Source of the DNA: a virus
Reading direction: 5' to 3' (one strand)
Length of the DNA stretch: 24,656 bases
Virus record (IMG/VR): IMGVR_UViG_3300025853_000619
Location: 1-24,656 of that record
Position numbers and translations under genes: made by a program. This document shows, piece after piece, positions 2,168 through 13,407 of the stretch. A model generated the notes under the pieces. The model was given only the letters and a program-made list of their open reading frames with translations, did no database searches and was not told the origin of the DNA. Each line of letters starts with the position of its first letter. Positions within the stretch are counted from its first letter, which is position 1.

Positions 2168-3358
2168 ATGGGACTATTTGACTTTCTCAAATCTGAAAAA
2201 AGAGGAGACAACTTTTTAAGAGCTGTTTTTGGTGGCTATGGAGCTGCTAATAGAACAGCTGTAAATAGAGACACTTCACTAACTTTTAGTGCCGTCTATT
2301 CATGTGTTCGTGTTATTAGTGAATCAATATCTAGCTTACCCATAAAAGTTTACAAAGTAGAAAAGGATGATGACAAGATTACCGACATAAGTCATCCAGT
2401 TTACGGACTACTTTCTAGATACCCTAATGAATACATGACTCCTTATACTTTCCTTGATACTTTAATGACTAACTTATTGCTTGAGGGAAATGCTTATTTT
2501 TATATAGAGAGAGACAACAATGCAAGACCAGTTTCATTAATACCTATCAATCCAGAGGATGTCAAAGTAATAAAGCATGAGGGCAATATTTACTATGACA
2601 TTAAAGACTATGAGATTGGAGTGATGAAAGAGGACATGCTTCACTTCTTTAATTTAACTTTTAATGGTTGTGAGGGAGTGAGTGTACTCAAAGCACAAAA
2701 CACTACAATAGCAACTTCAATAGCTGCAAACGACACTGCAAATAGTTATCTTGGAAACTCAGCTCAAGTTGGTGGAGTGATTAAACATCCAGGCAAACTT
2801 TCAAAAGAAGCTGTTGAGAGATTAAAGACTTCATGGAATCAAAACTATTCTGGCTCTTTTGTAGCTGGTAAAACGGCAATTCTTGAAGAGGGAATGACAT
2901 TTGAGCAGACTAACATAGATGCTAACAAGTATCAACTTTTAGAGACAAGACGTTTTCAAATAGAAGAGATTGCTAGAATCTTTAAAGTTCCATTATCATT
3001 AATTGGACATTTAGAAAAGGCTGCAAACTATTCTAGTATTGAGGCTTTATCTATTGACTTTGTTAGATTTACATTAACTCCTTACATGGTTTTAATAGAA
3101 CAAGAGTTAAATCGTAAATTATTCAGACAAAACGAATTTGGGCTATTTACAATCAAATTGGATGCTAATGCTTTATTGAGAGGAGATAGTTCCTCTAGAG
3201 CCACCTATTATCGTGAGATGGCTAGTATTGGAGCTTTGTCTATTAATGAAATAAGACGAATGGAGGACTTGAATAGTGTTGGTCCAGAGGGAGACCAATT
3301 ATTCATGCCATTAAATTATGCTCCTATTGGAGATGTTGAAGAGGAGGATAAAGAGTAA
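2168..3358 (+). CDS. Portal protein, HK97 gp3-like
   Basis: Forms the dodecameric ring at the capsid vertex through which DNA enters and leaves. The 396-residue protein has the family layout: FSAVYSCVRVISESISSLPI near 37-57, the YPNEYMTPYTFL segment near 92-103, LLEGNAYFYIERD near 110-123, and the later FKVPLSLIG (about 275-283) with SIEALSIDFVRFTLTPYM after it. Length is usual for HK97-type portals. It sits between TerL and the protease as expected. Its stop overlaps the protease ATG (TAATG). The start is the first ATG, ten bases after the promoter dyad TGTAATTACA. Confidence 0.95.
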   Translation: MGLFDFLKSEKRGDNFLRAVFGGYGAANRTAVNRDTSLTFSAVYSCVRVISESISSLPIKVYKVEKDDDKITDISHPVYGLLSRYPNEYMTPYTFLDTLMTNLLLEGNAYFYIERDNNARPVSLIPINPEDVKVIKHEGNIYYDIKDYEIGVMKEDMLHFFNLTFNGCEGVSVLKAQNTTIATSIAANDTANSYLGNSAQVGGVIKHPGKLSKEAVERLKTSWNQNYSGSFVAGKTAILEEGMTFEQTNIDANKYQLLETRRFQIEEIARIFKVPLSLIGHLEKAANYSSIEALSIDFVRFTLTPYMVLIEQELNRKLFRQNEFGLFTIKLDANALLRGDSSSRATYYREMASIGALSINEIRRMEDLNSVGPEGDQLFMPLNYAPIGDVEEEDKE

Positions 3359-4482
3359 TGCCGATACCTCAAAAAAATACAAACGAAACGGAAGAGCAAT
3401 TCATTGAGAGATGTGTTGCTGATAAGTTTATGCAAGAGTATGACAATGACCAAAGATTGGCTATTTGTTACGCTCAAATAGAGGATGATGAGGATAGAGC
3501 TTTAGAGGACATAAACACTAAGCCAACTCAAGAGATGTCAGACGAAGCTCAACAAGGATTAGAATGGAGAGAAGAGTTTGGAAGAGGAGGAACAGAGGTA
3601 GGAGTTGCAAGAGCTAGAGATTTAAAAAATAGAGTAAATCTAAGCATTGAAACTATTAAAAGAATGTACTCTTATTTTAGTCGACATGAAGTTGATAAAG
3701 AAGGTCAAGGCTTTTATAGTGGAGACGATGGTTATCCAAGTGCTGGTAGAATAGCATGGGCTTTATGGGGTGGTGATCCTGGCTTTGCTTGGACTAAACG
3801 AAAAATGGAAGAGATTGGAAAAGAAGAAAAATCTATAAATATGAATAATAAAGAAATAAGAACAATTGATGTTCAAGATTTAGAAGTCAGAATGGATGGT
3901 GAAAATCCAGTTGTAGTTGGCTATGGTGCTGTGTTTAATTCAATGTCAAATGACTTAGGAGGCTTTAGAGAATTTATCGGCTCGGAGGCTTTTGAAGGTC
4001 GTTTAGAGGATGATGTTAGATTCTTAATTAATCATGACGGTATTCCTTTAGCAAGAACAACTAATGGAACTTTGAAACTATCTGTCGATGAAAGAGGCTT
4101 AAAATATGAAGCTAAATTGAATCCTAATGTATCAACATCAAGAGATTTAATGGAGCTTTTAAAAGACGGAACAATTAATCAATCTAGCTTTGCTTTTATT
4201 GTAGAGGATGATTCTTGGGAGATTAAAGATGGAATGAATATTAGAACCATTAACAAAGTCTCAAGATTGTACGACGTAAGTGCAGTGACTTATCCAGCAT
4301 ATAATGAGGCATCTAGTTCGGTTGCTTTACGCTCAATGCAAGAGTGGAAAGAAAAAGAAGAGGCTAAAAAAATTGAAGAGAATTTAGCTAAAGAAAAAGA
4401 AGAGGGCATAAAAGAAGAGATAGACTTAACCCAACGCTCCCTCGCTGAAATGCGTTTGAAAGTCTTAAAACACAAATTATAA
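3358..4482 (+). CDS. Head maturation protease, S78 family, with extra N-terminal region
   Basis: Cleaves capsid scaffold sequences inside the prohead. The protease core runs from about 168 to 325: GYGAVFN near 188-194, catalytic H226 in LINHD, catalytic serine S277 in QSSFAF, and LYDVSAVTYPAY at 304-315, where D306 takes the place of the usual glutamate. Residues 1-160 are not protease. They hold an opening section (FIERCVADKF) and a second part (about 75-150) with RARDLKNR, SRHEVDK, DDGYPSAGRIAWALWGGD and AWTKRKM, a module I have seen in other phage structural proteins but whose role I do not know. The acidic/basic tail (330-374) looks helical. A second ATG at 3841 (M162) would give the protease core alone. 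Confidence 0.92.
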   Translation: MPIPQKNTNETEEQFIERCVADKFMQEYDNDQRLAICYAQIEDDEDRALEDINTKPTQEMSDEAQQGLEWREEFGRGGTEVGVARARDLKNRVNLSIETIKRMYSYFSRHEVDKEGQGFYSGDDGYPSAGRIAWALWGGDPGFAWTKRKMEEIGKEEKSINMNNKEIRTIDVQDLEVRMDGENPVVVGYGAVFNSMSNDLGGFREFIGSEAFEGRLEDDVRFLINHDGIPLARTTNGTLKLSVDERGLKYEAKLNPNVSTSRDLMELLKDGTINQSSFAFIVEDDSWEIKDGMNIRTINKVSRLYDVSAVTYPAYNEASSSVALRSMQEWKEKEEAKKIEENLAKEKEEGIKEEIDLTQRSLAEMRLKVLKHKL

Positions 4483-5749: not shown

Positions 5750-6379
5750 ATGGAATACTACAACTATAATTTTAATGCTTTAAGAGGGACTGACTTTGTT
5801 CCTTATGGTAAGTTAGTTTTAAAGACTGCTCCAGCTTCAACTCCAATTACTTTGGCTGAGGCTAAGGCTTTTTTAAGAGTTGATTCTGATTATGATGATG
5901 ATGATACTTATATCACTTCTCTAATTAGTGTTGCTACTCAAGTTGTAGAACAATATACAAGAAGAAGATTAATAACACAGACATACATAATATATTATGA
6001 TGAGTTCCCTCCTTACATTGATTTACAAATAGGAGAGGTCGCTAGTGTTGTAGAAATAAGATATTATGATGAAAATAATGATTTACAAAGACTTGCAACT
6101 AATCAATACGATGTTGATACTAGAGTAAGACCTGGCAGAATTTATCAATCTAATACTGGAGACTTTCCTAACACTTACGAGAGACCTAATGCAATAGAGG
6201 TTGAGTTTATTGTTGGTGGAAGTGCAAGTGATGTTCCAGCTCCAATAGTACAAGCTATTTATATAATTGTTGGTCGATATTATGAAAATCGACAAGATGT
6301 TGTCATGGGAACACAAGTAAATGAATTACCTTTAATGGTTGAGTACTTACTAACTCCTTATCGCTTTCTTGAGCTATGA
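5750..6379 (+). CDS. Head-tail connector, gp6/phiE125 gp8-like
   Basis: Adaptor that sits under the portal in the neck. The 209-residue protein contains the family segment ITLAEAKAFLRVD (about 33-45), an acidic stretch (DYDDDDTY), then VVEQYTRRRLITQTY (about 65-79) and a later GRYYENRQDV helix near 175-184, the pattern of the Phage_connect_1/phiE125 gp8 family. It is the first gene after the capsid terminator. It overlaps the following gene by four bases (ATGA at 6376-6379). The first 30 residues are outside the usual core. Confidence 0.85.
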   Translation: MEYYNYNFNALRGTDFVPYGKLVLKTAPASTPITLAEAKAFLRVDSDYDDDDTYITSLISVATQVVEQYTRRRLITQTYIIYYDEFPPYIDLQIGEVASVVEIRYYDENNDLQRLATNQYDVDTRVRPGRIYQSNTGDFPNTYERPNAIEVEFIVGGSASDVPAPIVQAIYIIVGRYYENRQDVVMGTQVNELPLMVEYLLTPYRFLEL

Positions 6380-7782
6380 TAATAGGCAAACTAGATAGAA
6401 AGTTAAAACTATACACTCAAACCTACTCCACTAATGCTTATGGAGAGAGAGTAGTAGCAAATAATACTTTTGTGACCATTTATGGAGACTTTGACTTCAA
6501 AGGTGGGAATACTAGTTTTGATGCTGATGATTTAATCAATGCAGAGAGAATAGAGTGTCTAATAAGATACAGAACAAGCATAGGAGTATCTCCTCAATAT
6601 TTTATTGCAAATGGATCAACTAACTACTCAATCAAGAGTATTAAAGAGGTAGGTCGAAAGGATGCAATGATTTTAACTTTAGAGAAAAACGATGTTGTTG
6701 ATTTATCACAGACAGCTCCTAATCAATTTGTCTTTACTATTGACACAGAGAACACTTCAAGTGGCTCTAGCTTAAATACTCAATTTATGATGCCATTGGT
6801 CAGTGGTGGTAGTTATAACGCTACGGTAAACTGGGGAGATGGGTCAAGCGATGCAATAACAAGTTATAATCAACAAGAAGTCACACACACTTATAGTAGT
6901 GCTGGACAATACGAAATAAGCATTGAGGGAACATTACAAGGATGGCAATTCAATAACGCTGGAGATAGGCTTAAAATGTTAGATGTAAAACAATGGGGAG
7001 TTTTAGACCTATCTACCGATGCTGCTTTTTATGGATGTACTAATTTAGATGCTAGTGCGACAGATTCTCCTATTATTTCTAGTACATCATTTTATAGAAT
7101 GTTTAGAGATTGTACTAACTTTAATGGAGCTATTGGCAACTGGGATATAAGTACAGTAACAAACATAAGAGAATCATTATATAATGCAACTACATTTAAT
7201 CAGCCATTAAATGAATGGAATATATCAAATTGCACGAGTTTGAGATTTATGTTTAGTCATTGCAAATCTTTTGACCAAGACTTAAACTCTTGGGATACTT
7301 CTAATGTTGAAGATATGAGTTATACATTTTTGGAATGCTCTCAATTCAATGGAGACATATATAGCTGGGACACTACTAACGTAGAAAATATGCAACAAAT
7401 GTTGTATAACTGCGACTTATTCGACCAATCTCTAGCAGAGTGGTCTATTGGAAACGTCACTAACTTTACTAACTTTATGCAGAACGCTACTGGTCTAAGC
7501 ACTTCTAACTACGATGCAACGCTAATAGCTTGGGCTGCTGGTGTAGTAGATACTGGTATAAGTATAAACTTCGGTGGCTCACAATTTACAGAGTCTGCTT
7601 ATGCTTCAAGATTTAGCTTAATAGAGGACGATAGTTGGACTATTGTTGATGGTGGTATATTTGACCCATCTCCAGCCGATTACATAAGCGTATTAAACAC
7701 GAGAGTAGTAGCTGCTGGAGGAGTAGTTGAGAACACTACAGATAGCCAAGCATTCTTACAAACATTAAATGACATAAGCTAA
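6376..7782 (+). CDS. Head-closure protein fused to PKD and BspA-like repeats
   Basis: Residues 1 to about 110 look like a phage head-closure/head-tail adaptor (GKLDRKLKLYTQT, later SIKSIKEVGRKDAMILTLEK), which normally ends near here. The chain continues for about 350 residues of surface-protein type. A PKD-like segment (about 118-190) contains VNWGDGSSDAIT and HTYSSAGQYEISI. Five repeats with an exact 25-residue period begin at 243, 268, 293, 318 and 343, each with an F-N/D core followed by WD/WN-x-S/T-N-V, the BspA/DUF285 pattern. A C-terminal tail (about 434-468) includes NTRVVAAGGVVENTTDSQAF. The frame is unbroken and no internal start suggests two genes. Inference: the adaptor anchors an adhesive appendage at the neck. 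Its stop overlaps the next ATG. Confidence 0.82.
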   Translation: MIIGKLDRKLKLYTQTYSTNAYGERVVANNTFVTIYGDFDFKGGNTSFDADDLINAERIECLIRYRTSIGVSPQYFIANGSTNYSIKSIKEVGRKDAMILTLEKNDVVDLSQTAPNQFVFTIDTENTSSGSSLNTQFMMPLVSGGSYNATVNWGDGSSDAITSYNQQEVTHTYSSAGQYEISIEGTLQGWQFNNAGDRLKMLDVKQWGVLDLSTDAAFYGCTNLDASATDSPIISSTSFYRMFRDCTNFNGAIGNWDISTVTNIRESLYNATTFNQPLNEWNISNCTSLRFMFSHCKSFDQDLNSWDTSNVEDMSYTFLECSQFNGDIYSWDTTNVENMQQMLYNCDLFDQSLAEWSIGNVTNFTNFMQNATGLSTSNYDATLIAWAAGVVDTGISINFGGSQFTESAYASRFSLIEDDSWTIVDGGIFDPSPADYISVLNTRVVAAGGVVENTTDSQAFLQTLNDIS

Positions 7783-9353
7783 TGGCAGACGGACTATTAA
7801 ATAAAGCAAGTATAATCTTAACTCCTACTGGTTACAAGGCTGGAACGCTTTACAACGTAGCACCAATAGACGAGCCTTATGAGGACTTTGACTTTGCTAG
7901 AGCTAGTGTTGCTAGTCGAGTTAATTCTAGTGGCTTAGTCGAGATGGTAGGACGTACTCTTGGTAGTGAGTTGGTTACCAATGGGGATTTTTCTAATGGT
8001 ACAACTGATTGGACTAATGCAAGTTCTGATACTTTTGAAGTTGTTGATGGTGGAGTAGGACATAGCACTTCTTTACATATAGTAGTTTCTGCTGTAAATA
8101 GAGGTGCTTATCAAAGTGTTTTTGTTGCAGACAAAACTTATTACGTCAGTTTAGATTTGAAAGTAGTTAGTGGTAGTGTTTACATTGGAAAAAACACTAG
8201 AAAATTAAATAATCAAAACTATAATAATTCAGATTGGCAAACTATAACAGGTTATTTAGTTGCTATTGATGATAAAATAAGAATTTATAGCAATGAGGCA
8301 TCTGAATTTTATGTAGACAACGTATCAGTCAAAGAAGTAATAGACACCAACAACATTCCAAGAATAAGCTATGATAGTAATGGAGAGAATGGGCATATAT
8401 TATTAGAGCCTACTTCTACTAATCTTATACCTTATAGTGAGGATTTTACTCAATGGTCTGCATTAAATGGTGGCACAGGTTCTTTACCTGTCGTTACTTC
8501 TAATACTACTATTTCACCTAGTGGTGAACAAAACGCAGACACAATATCTTTTGATAAAGGCTCTGCTAGTGGTGGTGGTGATTATAGTCTTTTAAGATTA
8601 GATTATGGTGGTGCTGACGTAGATGGTACTGCTTCAATTTATTTAAAAGCAGACACTAATGTAGATATAGAAATATCATCTGATGACGGAAGCTATCAAA
8701 CAGTAAGTGTTACTAATACTTGGCAACGATTTAGTGTTAGTGATGCAACTTCTGATAGATTATCTATGGGTTTAAGAGGTACTGTACCATCAAACAATAC
8801 TGCTACTGTATATGCTTGGGGAGGACAACTAGAAGCATTACCCTACGCTACATCATACATACCAACATACGGTAGTACAGTTACAAGAGCTACAGAGACT
8901 GCAACTGGTGCTGGTAGTGCTGACTTAATAAACTCAACAGAGGGTGTGTTATATGCAGAGATAGAATCATTAGTTAATGGTGGAGTTGACAGAATAATTT
9001 CTTTATCAGACGAAACAAATAACAATTTAATTTATATAAGAATTGACAACACCGCCAACAGAATAAATTCATTTGCAAGAGGTGGAGGTGGTACTTATAA
9101 TATATTAACAGTAAATGGAGTAAACCAAACAAACACTAATAAAATTGCTTTAGTTTGGGATGCTTCAAATGTTAGGGTTTGGATTAATGGTAGCCAAAGC
9201 CTTACACAATCAATTAACAACTTACCTACTGGAATGAAAACTTTAAGTTTTACAAGTCCAACTGGTGGCTCTCCTTTCTACGGTAAAGTCAAAGCAGTAG
9301 CTGTATTTAATGAGGCTTTAAGTGATAGCGAACTAACACAACTAACAACGTAA
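7782..9353 (+). CDS. Structural protein with carbohydrate-binding and LamG-like domains
   Basis: Likely virion surface protein that binds glycans. The 523-residue protein starts with the phage fibre-like lead ARASVASRVNSSGLVE (40-55). A first jelly-roll (about 63-185) begins ELVTNGDFSNGTTDW and ends FYVDNVSVKEV. A second unit (about 193-370) has PRISY, ILLEPTSTNLIPYSEDFTQW, WQRFSVS and WGGQLEALPYATSYIPTYGS. The C-terminal region (about 385-520) resembles a LamG/concanavalin-like lectin fold (GVLYAEIES, VRVWINGS, GKVKAVAVFNEALSDSEL). No catalytic residues are recognised. It lies inside the neck cluster instead of with the tail genes, immediately after the BspA-repeat fusion and coupled by TAATG, so the two probably act together. 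Confidence 0.78.
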   Translation: MADGLLNKASIILTPTGYKAGTLYNVAPIDEPYEDFDFARASVASRVNSSGLVEMVGRTLGSELVTNGDFSNGTTDWTNASSDTFEVVDGGVGHSTSLHIVVSAVNRGAYQSVFVADKTYYVSLDLKVVSGSVYIGKNTRKLNNQNYNNSDWQTITGYLVAIDDKIRIYSNEASEFYVDNVSVKEVIDTNNIPRISYDSNGENGHILLEPTSTNLIPYSEDFTQWSALNGGTGSLPVVTSNTTISPSGEQNADTISFDKGSASGGGDYSLLRLDYGGADVDGTASIYLKADTNVDIEISSDDGSYQTVSVTNTWQRFSVSDATSDRLSMGLRGTVPSNNTATVYAWGGQLEALPYATSYIPTYGSTVTRATETATGAGSADLINSTEGVLYAEIESLVNGGVDRIISLSDETNNNLIYIRIDNTANRINSFARGGGGTYNILTVNGVNQTNTNKIALVWDASNVRVWINGSQSLTQSINNLPTGMKTLSFTSPTGGSPFYGKVKAVAVFNEALSDSELTQLTT

Positions 9354-10659: not shown

Positions 10660-11100
10660 ATGGCAATTTTCAATGGAACAGACCTAATATTAAAGGTCTC
10701 AGAAACAAGTGAAGGAACAGAGTATAAACTGCTCCATTCACAAAATGTAAGTTTATCAGTTAATGCTGATACAATAGATGTAAGTACTAAAGATAGCTCT
10801 GGATGGAGAGATTTAATCGGTGGTCAAAAGTCTTTTAGCCTTTCGGCTGATGGTCTTTATGACTATTCTCCTACTTCTGGAACTACTACTGATCCAAGTG
10901 ATTTAGTAACTCAAATGCTTAACAGAACAGAAGTAACATTCACTTTCACTTATGGTGGTTCTCTGTCAGCTGGAGATACTTATTACACTGGCTCTGGTTT
11001 AGTTACTAGCTTTGAGGTAAGTGGTGGTGTTGAGGATGCTCCAACTTATTCAGTAAGTATCGAGGGTACTGGTGCATTAACTCAAGCAGTACAAGCATAA
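10660..11100 (+). CDS. Major tail tube protein
   Basis: Forms the tail tube as stacked hexamers. The 146-residue protein has the TP901-1/GTA-type tube pattern: MAIFNGTDLILKV at the start, NVSLSVNADTIDVSTKDSSG (about 29-48), SFSLSADGLYDYS (about 58-70), and a strand-rich second half ending TYSVSIEGTGAL. Length is typical of the short tube family without an added Ig domain. It lies 26 bases after the small gene and is followed by a strong hairpin, consistent with separate control of an abundant protein. Confidence 0.88.
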   Translation: MAIFNGTDLILKVSETSEGTEYKLLHSQNVSLSVNADTIDVSTKDSSGWRDLIGGQKSFSLSADGLYDYSPTSGTTTDPSDLVTQMLNRTEVTFTFTYGGSLSAGDTYYTGSGLVTSFEVSGGVEDAPTYSVSIEGTGALTQAVQA

Positions 11101-11169: not shown

Positions 11170-11520
11170 ATGTACGAAATAGTTATAATAAACGGAAAAG
11201 ATTACCCAGTTAGATTTGGGATGAATAGTTTGAGAAACTTCACTAAGGCAACTAATAGAAGTTTACAAGACTTAGACAAGTTAGGAGAGGGAATGAGCTT
11301 AGATGATGCTTGTCAGTTGATTTTAGCTGGTTTAAAAGACGGAGCTAGAGTTAGTGGGGTTGAATGTTCTTTAAATGTTGATGATGTCGCAGACTTATTA
11401 GATGAGGATTTTAACGCTTTAAATAATGTGTTAGAGATATTCTCTAATCAATTTACTGCTAAATTTGAATCTGAGGGAAACGACCAAGCCACGAAGAAAG
11501 TGGCGAAAACAAAGAAATAA
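11170..11520 (+). CDS. Tail assembly chaperone, short form (gpG-like)
   Basis: Chaperone acting on the tape measure protein during tail assembly. The start chosen is ATG 11170 (MYEIVIINGKDYPVRFGMN), giving 116 residues; the frame extends back to a TTG at 11110, but that extension would run through the hairpin and has an unlikely composition. Helical features LRNFTKATNRSLQDLDK and DACQLILAGLKDGAR are consistent with lambda gpG-type proteins, and the place between tube protein and tape measure is diagnostic. It ends in a lysine-rich segment (ATKKVAKTKK) whose A-rich codons form the slippage region for the longer product. Confidence 0.8.
   Translation: MYEIVIINGKDYPVRFGMNSLRNFTKATNRSLQDLDKLGEGMSLDDACQLILAGLKDGARVSGVECSLNVDDVADLLDEDFNALNNVLEIFSNQFTAKFESEGNDQATKKVAKTKK
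11475..11520 (+). promoter_or_regulatory. Probable -1 ribosomal frameshift window
   Basis: The -1 frame is closed by TGA at 11472-11474 and is then open through 11843, so slippage must occur between 11475 and the frame-0 stop at 11518-11520. The interval contains AAAACAAAGAAATAA. The best candidate is A AAG AAA at 11511-11517, directly before the stop; P-site AAG can re-pair as AAA, while the A-site match is imperfect. No canonical X XXY YYZ heptamer is present. Confidence 0.6.
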
Positions 11521-11846
11521 ATTGGGATAGTTTAGAGGCTGTTGCATACGGTCTTGGACTATTACCTAAGGAGTTTTGGGATTTAACTTTCCATGAGTTC
11601 TTTTGTATTCAAAAAGGTAGGAATGACCGATTTGAATTAGAACAAAGGTTTGAATGGGAACGGATAAGATGGTTGGCTTGTTGTAATTTACAGCCACACA
11701 CAAAAAAGGGACAATCCTTAACTCCTCAAAAACTTATTAAGTTTGATTGGGAGAAAAAAGAAGTTAAGACCGACATCGACAAACAAAGAAAAAGAGCTGA
11801 GTATATTAAAAAGAAATATGATTTGCTAAATAAGAAAAATGGCTGA
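11475..11846 (+). CDS. Tail assembly chaperone extension (gpT-like), reached by frameshift
   Basis: Open -1 frame filling the 318 bases between the short chaperone and the tape measure gene. It has no ATG; reading on from the slippage window gives INWDSLEAVAYGLG, LLPKEFWDLTFHEFFCIQKG, then FELEQRFEWERIRWLACC and a basic helical end (KKKYDLLNKKNG), stopping at TGA 11844-11846. The first part resembles TAC_6/rcc01693-type tail assembly chaperones (lglsp-efW-ltp-El pattern). It overlaps the tape measure start by eight bases. Coordinates give the open frame; the product is most likely a fusion to about 115 residues of the preceding protein, as in lambda gpGT. Confidence 0.78.
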   Translation, partial: GKRPSHEESGENKEINWDSLEAVAYGLGLLPKEFWDLTFHEFFCIQKGRNDRFELEQRFEWERIRWLACCNLQPHTKKGQSLTPQKLIKFDWEKKEVKTDIDKQRKRAEYIKKKYDLLNKKNG

Positions 11847-13407
11847 GAAAAATTTAAGTATAAAATTATCATTAAACGATAAGCAATTCCAGAGCAATCT
11901 GAAGAAAGCCACTAAGTCAATGGCTAAATTTGGCAATAATATGAAGTCTTTAGGTCGTACTATTTCAACTGGTGTTACTTTACCTATTGTGGCTTTAGGA
12001 GTTGCAAGTGTTAAGGCTTTTGATGACCAGATAAAAGCTGAGACATTACTTAGAACATCATTAAAAGGTAATGCAGAGGCTTACAAAAACTTGACCGAAC
12101 AAGCTCGAGAATTACAGAAAGTTACAATATTTGGAGATGAAGCTACAATACAAGCTCAATCTTATTTAGCTCAATTAGGACTAACTGAGGAGGCTATTTT
12201 AAGACTTACTCCATTAATTCAAGACTTTGCAACTGCTCAAGGAATTCAACTAACTGATGCTGCTAAATTAGTTGCTAAGTCGGTTGGATCAAGCACAAAT
12301 GCTTTGAGTCGTTATGGTATAGCCATTGAGGGAGAAGTTGGAAGTACAGAAAGATTAGAAAGTGCTGTTAATGCTCTAAGTACGGCATTTGGAGGACAAG
12401 CTGAGGCTATTGCAAAAGAGGGACTTGCTCCATTACAACAATTACAAAATCAATTAGGAGACGTTGCGGAACAATTTGGAGAGTTGATAATCCAATTTAT
12501 TCAGCCATTGACGGAAATATTACAAACTTTAGCCGATTATTTAAGTAATTTAACAGAAGAGCAAAAAAAGAATATTCTTGAATGGGGTTTATTATTAGCT
12601 GCTTTAGGACCAGTTATTATAGCAATAGGAAGTCTTGTTACTACATTAGCTACACTTATACCAATAGCAGCTTCAGTAGTAGCTGCAATAACTCCTATAA
12701 CTGCTGTGATAATGGCTGCTGGTGCAGCTGTTTTATATCTTGTAAATAGATTCAGAGACTTACAAAAAGAATACGAGGATTATAATGAAGTAGTAGGAGA
12801 TTTTGAGCCTATTGCTCCTTTTGTACCTACAACTACAACTCCTACAACACCTACTGAAAGAACTCCAGATGCTAATTTTTCCTTTAATTTTATTGAGCCA
12901 ATAAAAGCTACTAATGTAGAATTAAAAAAATTAAAAGAACTTACACCAGTTTTAGAAGAGTTTGAAGAGGGATTATCTTCTATGGATATAGTAGCTAACG
13001 ACATTAATCAGAGCTTTATGACTTTTGGTAATGTAATTCAAGGAGTATTTGCTCAAGCATTACAAAGTCAAGAAGGCTTCTTTAAATCATTCTTAGAGGG
13101 TGCTAAACAAGCATTAAAAGCAATGTTAGCTCAGATTGCTGCTATGCTTATATTAAATGCTTTACTAGGAGGTACTGGTATAGGTGCTATGATGGGACTA
13201 AAGAATATAGGAGGATTAGCTGGTATAGGAGATGTATTAGGAGGAGTGGGTAATGTTAATGCTAACTCAGTAGGTGGAGGAGTAGGACTAAAATCAATGA
13301 TAAATACTGGAGGCTCTACAGAAGTATTTGGCACAATAAGTGGAGCTGATATATTACTAAGCTCAGATAGAGCAAGAAACAATAGAAACAGAACAAGAGG
13401 TTACTAA
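11839..13407 (+). CDS. Tail tape measure protein
   Basis: Sets tail length and may enter the host membrane during DNA delivery. The 522-residue protein has LSIKLSLNDKQFQSNLKKATKSM at the start, a Gly/Ser region GRTISTGVTLPIVALG (about 39-54), alanine-rich helices (about 60-230), a strongly hydrophobic stretch (about 245-303, LLAALGPVIIAIGSLV onward) with two to three membrane-like segments, a TTTTPTTPT linker (about 332-340), and a Gly-rich C-terminus. It is short for a tape measure; at roughly 0.15 nm per residue, an established rule, the tail would be near 75-80 nm. TAATG overlap couples it to the next gene. Confidence 0.9.
   Translation: MAEKNLSIKLSLNDKQFQSNLKKATKSMAKFGNNMKSLGRTISTGVTLPIVALGVASVKAFDDQIKAETLLRTSLKGNAEAYKNLTEQARELQKVTIFGDEATIQAQSYLAQLGLTEEAILRLTPLIQDFATAQGIQLTDAAKLVAKSVGSSTNALSRYGIAIEGEVGSTERLESAVNALSTAFGGQAEAIAKEGLAPLQQLQNQLGDVAEQFGELIIQFIQPLTEILQTLADYLSNLTEEQKKNILEWGLLLAALGPVIIAIGSLVTTLATLIPIAASVVAAITPITAVIMAAGAAVLYLVNRFRDLQKEYEDYNEVVGDFEPIAPFVPTTTTPTTPTERTPDANFSFNFIEPIKATNVELKKLKELTPVLEEFEEGLSSMDIVANDINQSFMTFGNVIQGVFAQALQSQEGFFKSFLEGAKQALKAMLAQIAAMLILNALLGGTGIGAMMGLKNIGGLAGIGDVLGGVGNVNANSVGGGVGLKSMINTGGSTEVFGTISGADILLSSDRARNNRNRTRGY

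Follow-up and report, generated by a model that had tools for sequence, protein, structure and literature searches.

Low-level −1 slippage occurs at the G/GT genes of lambda and in most long-tailed phages, in which the ratio of the two products matters for tail assembly (PMC5009743). The strongest slip sites in E. coli end in AAG (A_AAA_AAG, C_CCA_AAG and G_GGA_AAG), and the spacers most often studied are 5–9 nt long (PMC5009743). The heptamer GGGAAAC has been reported for Burkholderia phage KL1 (PMC3483164) and for Caulobacter phage Colossus (PMC3556154), and as G_GGA_AAC it is the site listed for the haloarchaeal virus HCTV-1 (PMC5009743). In reporters, two HK97-like tail-chaperone pairs showed 6–7% frameshifting (PMC3711429). 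Here, we compare these systems with a pair of overlapping frames, G and T, in a viral DNA stretch of 24,656 nt (the window). This pair is almost certainly a case of programmed −1 ribosomal frameshifting as in lambda G/GT.

All features of the locus were on the plus strand, in the order major tail protein, G, T and tape measure. The major tail (tube) protein gene (10660–11100; PF06199, E 5.8e-19) was followed by G, a putative G-like tail assembly chaperone in its short form (11170–11520; ATG at 11170, stop TAA at 11518–11520; 116 aa), and the tape measure protein gene (11839–13407) matched tail length tape measure PHROGs with a best E of 2e-19. The T frame is in −1 phase relative to G. Many stops interrupted the −1 frame up to a TGA at 11472–11474, after which it was open from 11475 to the TGA at 11844–11846; within 11475–11846 it contained no usable ATG, GTG or TTG start for the conserved T domain. 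Two overlapping frames, the second of them start-less, thus lie between the gene for the major tail protein and that for the tape measure, which is the lambda G/GT-type arrangement. An earlier note made from the sequence alone had described T as a good protein frame without a start codon, open only after 11474 and in −1 phase, and these frames and coordinates were confirmed. Its statement that 318 bases hold the frame was correct for the distance from the G stop to the tape-measure ATG at 11839, but the frame itself measured 372 bases and overlapped the 3′ end of G. The T stop fell just within the tape-measure gene, the ATG of which overlaps the end of T at 11839–11846 (ATGGCTGA). In 90 of 94 relatives, the tape-measure ATG was 5–23 nt upstream of the T stop, and in the other four no long ORF start was found. 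Translation of the tape measure could be coupled to that of the frameshifted T product.

Elsewhere in the window, the prohead protease (Peptidase_S78; 3358–4482) carried an N-terminal extension of ~170 aa without a Pfam match. At 6376–7782, a head-completion protein (Phage_HCP, a weak match) was fused to a PKD domain and DUF285 repeats, which form an unusual surface-type extension of this connector protein. The gene at 7782–9353, between the head-completion and neck genes, encodes a large protein, the C-terminal domain of which is concanavalin/laminin-G-like. No Rfam families or tRNAs were found within the 24,656 nt of the window. Searches of cultured phages, with the nucleotide sequence of the G/T region or with the G protein, gave no matches, and a single match to a GTDB genome (L236) was set aside as a chance match.

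The identity of the two proteins was investigated using profile matches and structure models. The T protein of the window matched Pfam Phage_TAC_6 with an E of 7e-4 and 20.3 bits, which does not reach the curated cut-off of 23.4, while 19 of 19 aligned T members matched this family at an E of 0.01 or better (best 5e-4). These matches suggest, below the formal threshold, that T belongs to Phage_TAC_6, which the earlier note had called TAC_6-like. T also matched PHROG 16333 (E 1e-16). The match of G to Pfam Phage_TAC_12 was weak (E 0.0025, 18.7 bits, not reaching the curated cut-off of 26.2) and was shared by two of 17 G members at an E of 0.01; G matched PHROG 2115 (tail protein) with an E of 1e-7. 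For both G and T, AlphaFold gave models of low confidence (pLDDT < 55). That both proteins act as tail chaperones is suggested mostly by gene order, the PHROG matches and the frame architecture. Across 63 relatives, pairwise differences in T fell at third, first and second codon positions as 65673:28493:14256, and this third-position bias indicates selection on the protein encoded in the −1 frame.

Contrary to the claim of the earlier note that the slippage interval has no X XXY YYZ heptamer, GGGAAAC was present at 11475–11481. It begins at the first base past the last −1 stop, the TGA at 11472–11474 that abuts it, and G-frame reading divides it into G GGA AAC, with GAG GGA AAC as the codons, which is the canonical arrangement and the required phase. 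In-phase X XXY YYZ strings occurred four times in the 117 codons of G; the other three (11331, 11370 and 11418) were ruled out by stops that interrupt the −1 frame further downstream. The frequency of GGGAAAC across the window was close to chance expectation. A single heptamer could easily fall within an interval of 45 bases, and the weight consequently rests on comparison with relatives. IMG/VR scans gave 80 loci for the T protein and 80 loci for the G protein, with overlapping loci added by a scan with the T alignment, and the comparison set comprised 94 gene pairs with distinct, ATG-starting sequences. The shift was −1 in all 94. GGGAAAC was invariant and in phase in every pair, starting at base 306 of G with GAG GGA AAC as codons 102–104. 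Sixty degenerate codons in G specify an invariant amino acid, and nine of these were also invariant as codons, including the consecutive GAG GGA AAC; the chance that three given positions all fall among nine of 60 is ~0.0025 by simple arithmetic that ignores relatedness. Elsewhere in G the codons for the same amino acids vary, with glycine encoded by GGA (438), GGT (226), GGC (63) and GGG (37) and asparagine by AAC (258) and AAT (245). Heptamers that end in AAC are less common in bacteria, which counts against a ribosomal site here, although the tail genes of KL1 and Colossus are reported to have them.

Downstream of the heptamer, a spacer of six nucleotides (GACCAA, 11482–11487), always 6 nt in the relatives, is followed by a hairpin at 11488–11504 (GCCAC-GAAGAAA-GTGGC) with a stem of five base pairs, a folding energy of −8.7 kcal/mol and a z-score of −5.0. 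An RNA structure 5–9 nt past the heptamer is a common, though not obligatory, part of canonical −1 frameshift sites, and the 6 nt seen here fall within this range. Stem versions among the relatives were GCCAC/GTGGC, GCTCC/GGAGC and GCTCC/GGGGC, some with loops three bases shorter; the two alternative stems compensate for each other's changes, so that all five pairs formed in 93 of 94 relatives. Covariation was assessed on a loop-free alignment, as a MAFFT alignment that included the loops misplaced the loop deletion and gave an uninformative stem count. This alignment held 20 distinct versions; 99% of its cells were paired, compared with 31–55% in slid controls, and two of the five stem pairs showed changes on both sides. 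Neither the paired fraction nor the covariation score was reached by any of 500 shuffles. A tree of G required the stem to switch type 13 times, with at least six of the switches forced by well-supported branches. Since the arms lie only a few bases apart, recombination that swaps the entire hairpin can account for some of this switching. Its folding energy, stem conservation and covariation make the hairpin a likely frameshift stimulator.

In the proposed mechanism, the majority of ribosomes would translate G and terminate at the TAA at 11518, releasing the protein of 116 aa. The hairpin at 11488–11504 may hold up some ribosomes while GGA and AAC are decoded, and these ribosomes would slip one base back on G GGA AAC (11475–11481). 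Their tRNAs would re-pair with GGG and AAA, and the next codon would be CGA (11481). Translation would then continue to the TGA ending at 11846 and yield a GT fusion of ~225 aa, with a predicted junction of ...SEGN-RPSHEESGENKEINWD... in which T is entered only via the frameshift. If the proteins work as they do in lambda, the tape measure protein may be coated by G and GT, and the T part may recruit the major tail protein as the tail is built.

Alternative explanations were weighed against these observations. RNA polymerase slippage could in principle make the window fusion, given that distant homologues carry A8 or A9 runs, a type of substrate known for polymerase slippage in other genes. 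The window clade, however, carries no long homopolymer at the site, and GGGAAAC followed by a hairpin after a spacer is the pattern of ribosomal slippage, which leaves polymerase slippage very unlikely for this locus. Translational coupling is frequent between neighbouring phage genes, and T might accordingly be made as a separate protein by reinitiation or internal initiation. Against this, 92 of 94 relatives contained no ATG, GTG or TTG before codon 26 of the −1 frame, and the remaining two had a TTG at codon index 18. In nearly all relatives, the T frame became open at the heptamer or a short distance before it, and the conservation of both heptamer and hairpin also speaks against separate synthesis, to which we likewise assign only a slight probability.

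The earlier note had instead placed the slip at A AAG AAA (11511–11517), directly before the stop TAA, as a variant of the lambda gpG/gpGT mechanism, and had proposed alignment of related phages to assess the slip site and its downstream structure. The −1 frame is open there too, but this string is not an X XXY YYZ heptamer and a canonical one is present 36 nt upstream. The lysine pair was not conserved among the relatives, in which AAG AAG TAA/TAG (69 of 94) and AAG AAA TAA (25 of 94) both preceded the end of G; GGGAAAC and the hairpin were conserved while the stop-adjacent site varied freely. The conserved hairpin lies upstream of A AAG AAA and cannot be a downstream stimulator for that site. 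Comparison thus supported the −1 chaperone extension, whereas slippage at the stop-adjacent lysine pair was contradicted by the invariant GGGAAAC and the hairpin and is highly improbable. That a sequencing error or mutation broke one gene in two, which has only the frame change in its favour, is already refuted by the −1 relation in 94 distinct pairs from many metagenomes, none of which showed the frames joined by an indel, and its probability is negligible.

More distant T homologues (hhalign E 1e-25 and 2e-19) carried homopolymer sites in place of GGGAAAC. In gut Bacteroides-type phages including Bacuni_F1, an A9 run was present in 15 of 15 distinct pairs with T in −1, and loci of this type with A9 at the G/T junction and T in −1 were L160, L237–L253, L256, L272 and L273. 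A first aquatic-type lineage carried A9 in 19 of 19 distinct pairs with T in +1 (equivalently −2). The loci listed for this case were L275, L278–L289, L292, L294, L295, L303, L309 and L312, in which the A-run lay shortly before or at the start of the T match. Lysine codons elsewhere in G of this lineage were AAG in 95 cases and AAA in 10, which indicates that the A9 run goes against codon preference. A second aquatic-type lineage, with a G protein 69% identical to that of the first, carried A8 in 13 of 13 pairs with T in −1. The habitat labels of these lineages are putative and come from the company of their contigs. Cellulophaga phage phi39:1 (gp19/gp20; L271 2445–2460) has an A8 run ahead of the gp19 stop, and its T homologue was open from this run in the +1 frame, with a later ATG as the annotated start. 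A +1 frame is unreachable by ribosomal −1 slippage; −2 slippage or RNA polymerase slippage could reach it. In other genes, such as Thermus dnaX (cited in PMC3711429), polymerase slippage takes place on runs of nine or more As. These patterns may reflect one chaperone family in which the recoding signal was replaced several times (GGGAAAC and hairpin with −1; A9 with −1; A8 with −1; or A9 with +1 or −2), the A9/+1 lineage perhaps setting its G:GT ratio by RNA polymerase or −2 ribosomal slippage, and we give this reading about an even chance.

The window case is an ordinary tail-chaperone frameshift, with a heptamer already published for tail genes of other phages and of an archaeal virus, and the window itself matters little. 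Its annotation is corrected, with T as part of a G–T fusion and not a start-less orphan, and the known cases gain a well-conserved example, its hairpin covarying, from phages with closest cultured homologues in Bacteroides and Cellulophaga phages. Of greater weight would be the comparison across the family, in which G and T seem to have retained a fixed requirement for a minor fusion product even as the slip signal, and in places the direction of the shift, changed. If this is true, one could test whether slippage by the ribosome and by the polymerase can replace each other in setting tail-chaperone ratios.

Compared with known systems, the window shares with lambda gpG/gpGT (G GGA AAG) the position between the major tail protein and the tape measure, the −1 shift, a G GGA AAN site near the end of the short gene and a start-less second domain (PMC5009743 and general knowledge). 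It differs in that its heptamer ends in C and not G and that a short hairpin lies 6 nt downstream, and its proteins had no sequence similarity to lambda gpG/gpT recognisable by the tools used. KL1, Colossus and HCTV-1 share the G GGA AAC heptamer, the tail chaperone role and the −1 shift with the window but belong to other phage lineages and hosts; KL1 also has a stem-loop predicted downstream, whereas its heptamer is directly upstream of the stop codon. The PANG_00010/PANG_00011 pair of Paenibacillus phage PG1 resembles the window in an in-phase GGGAAAC within the overlap, a −1 shift and a weakly similar T region, although the pair is annotated as two separate hypothetical proteins and the host is a Firmicute. 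The pair in Bacteroides phages Bacuni_F1, F2 and F4 has a homologous T domain (hhalign E 2e-19) and T in −1, like the window, whereas its slip site is an A9 run and its members are annotated as separate hypothetical proteins.
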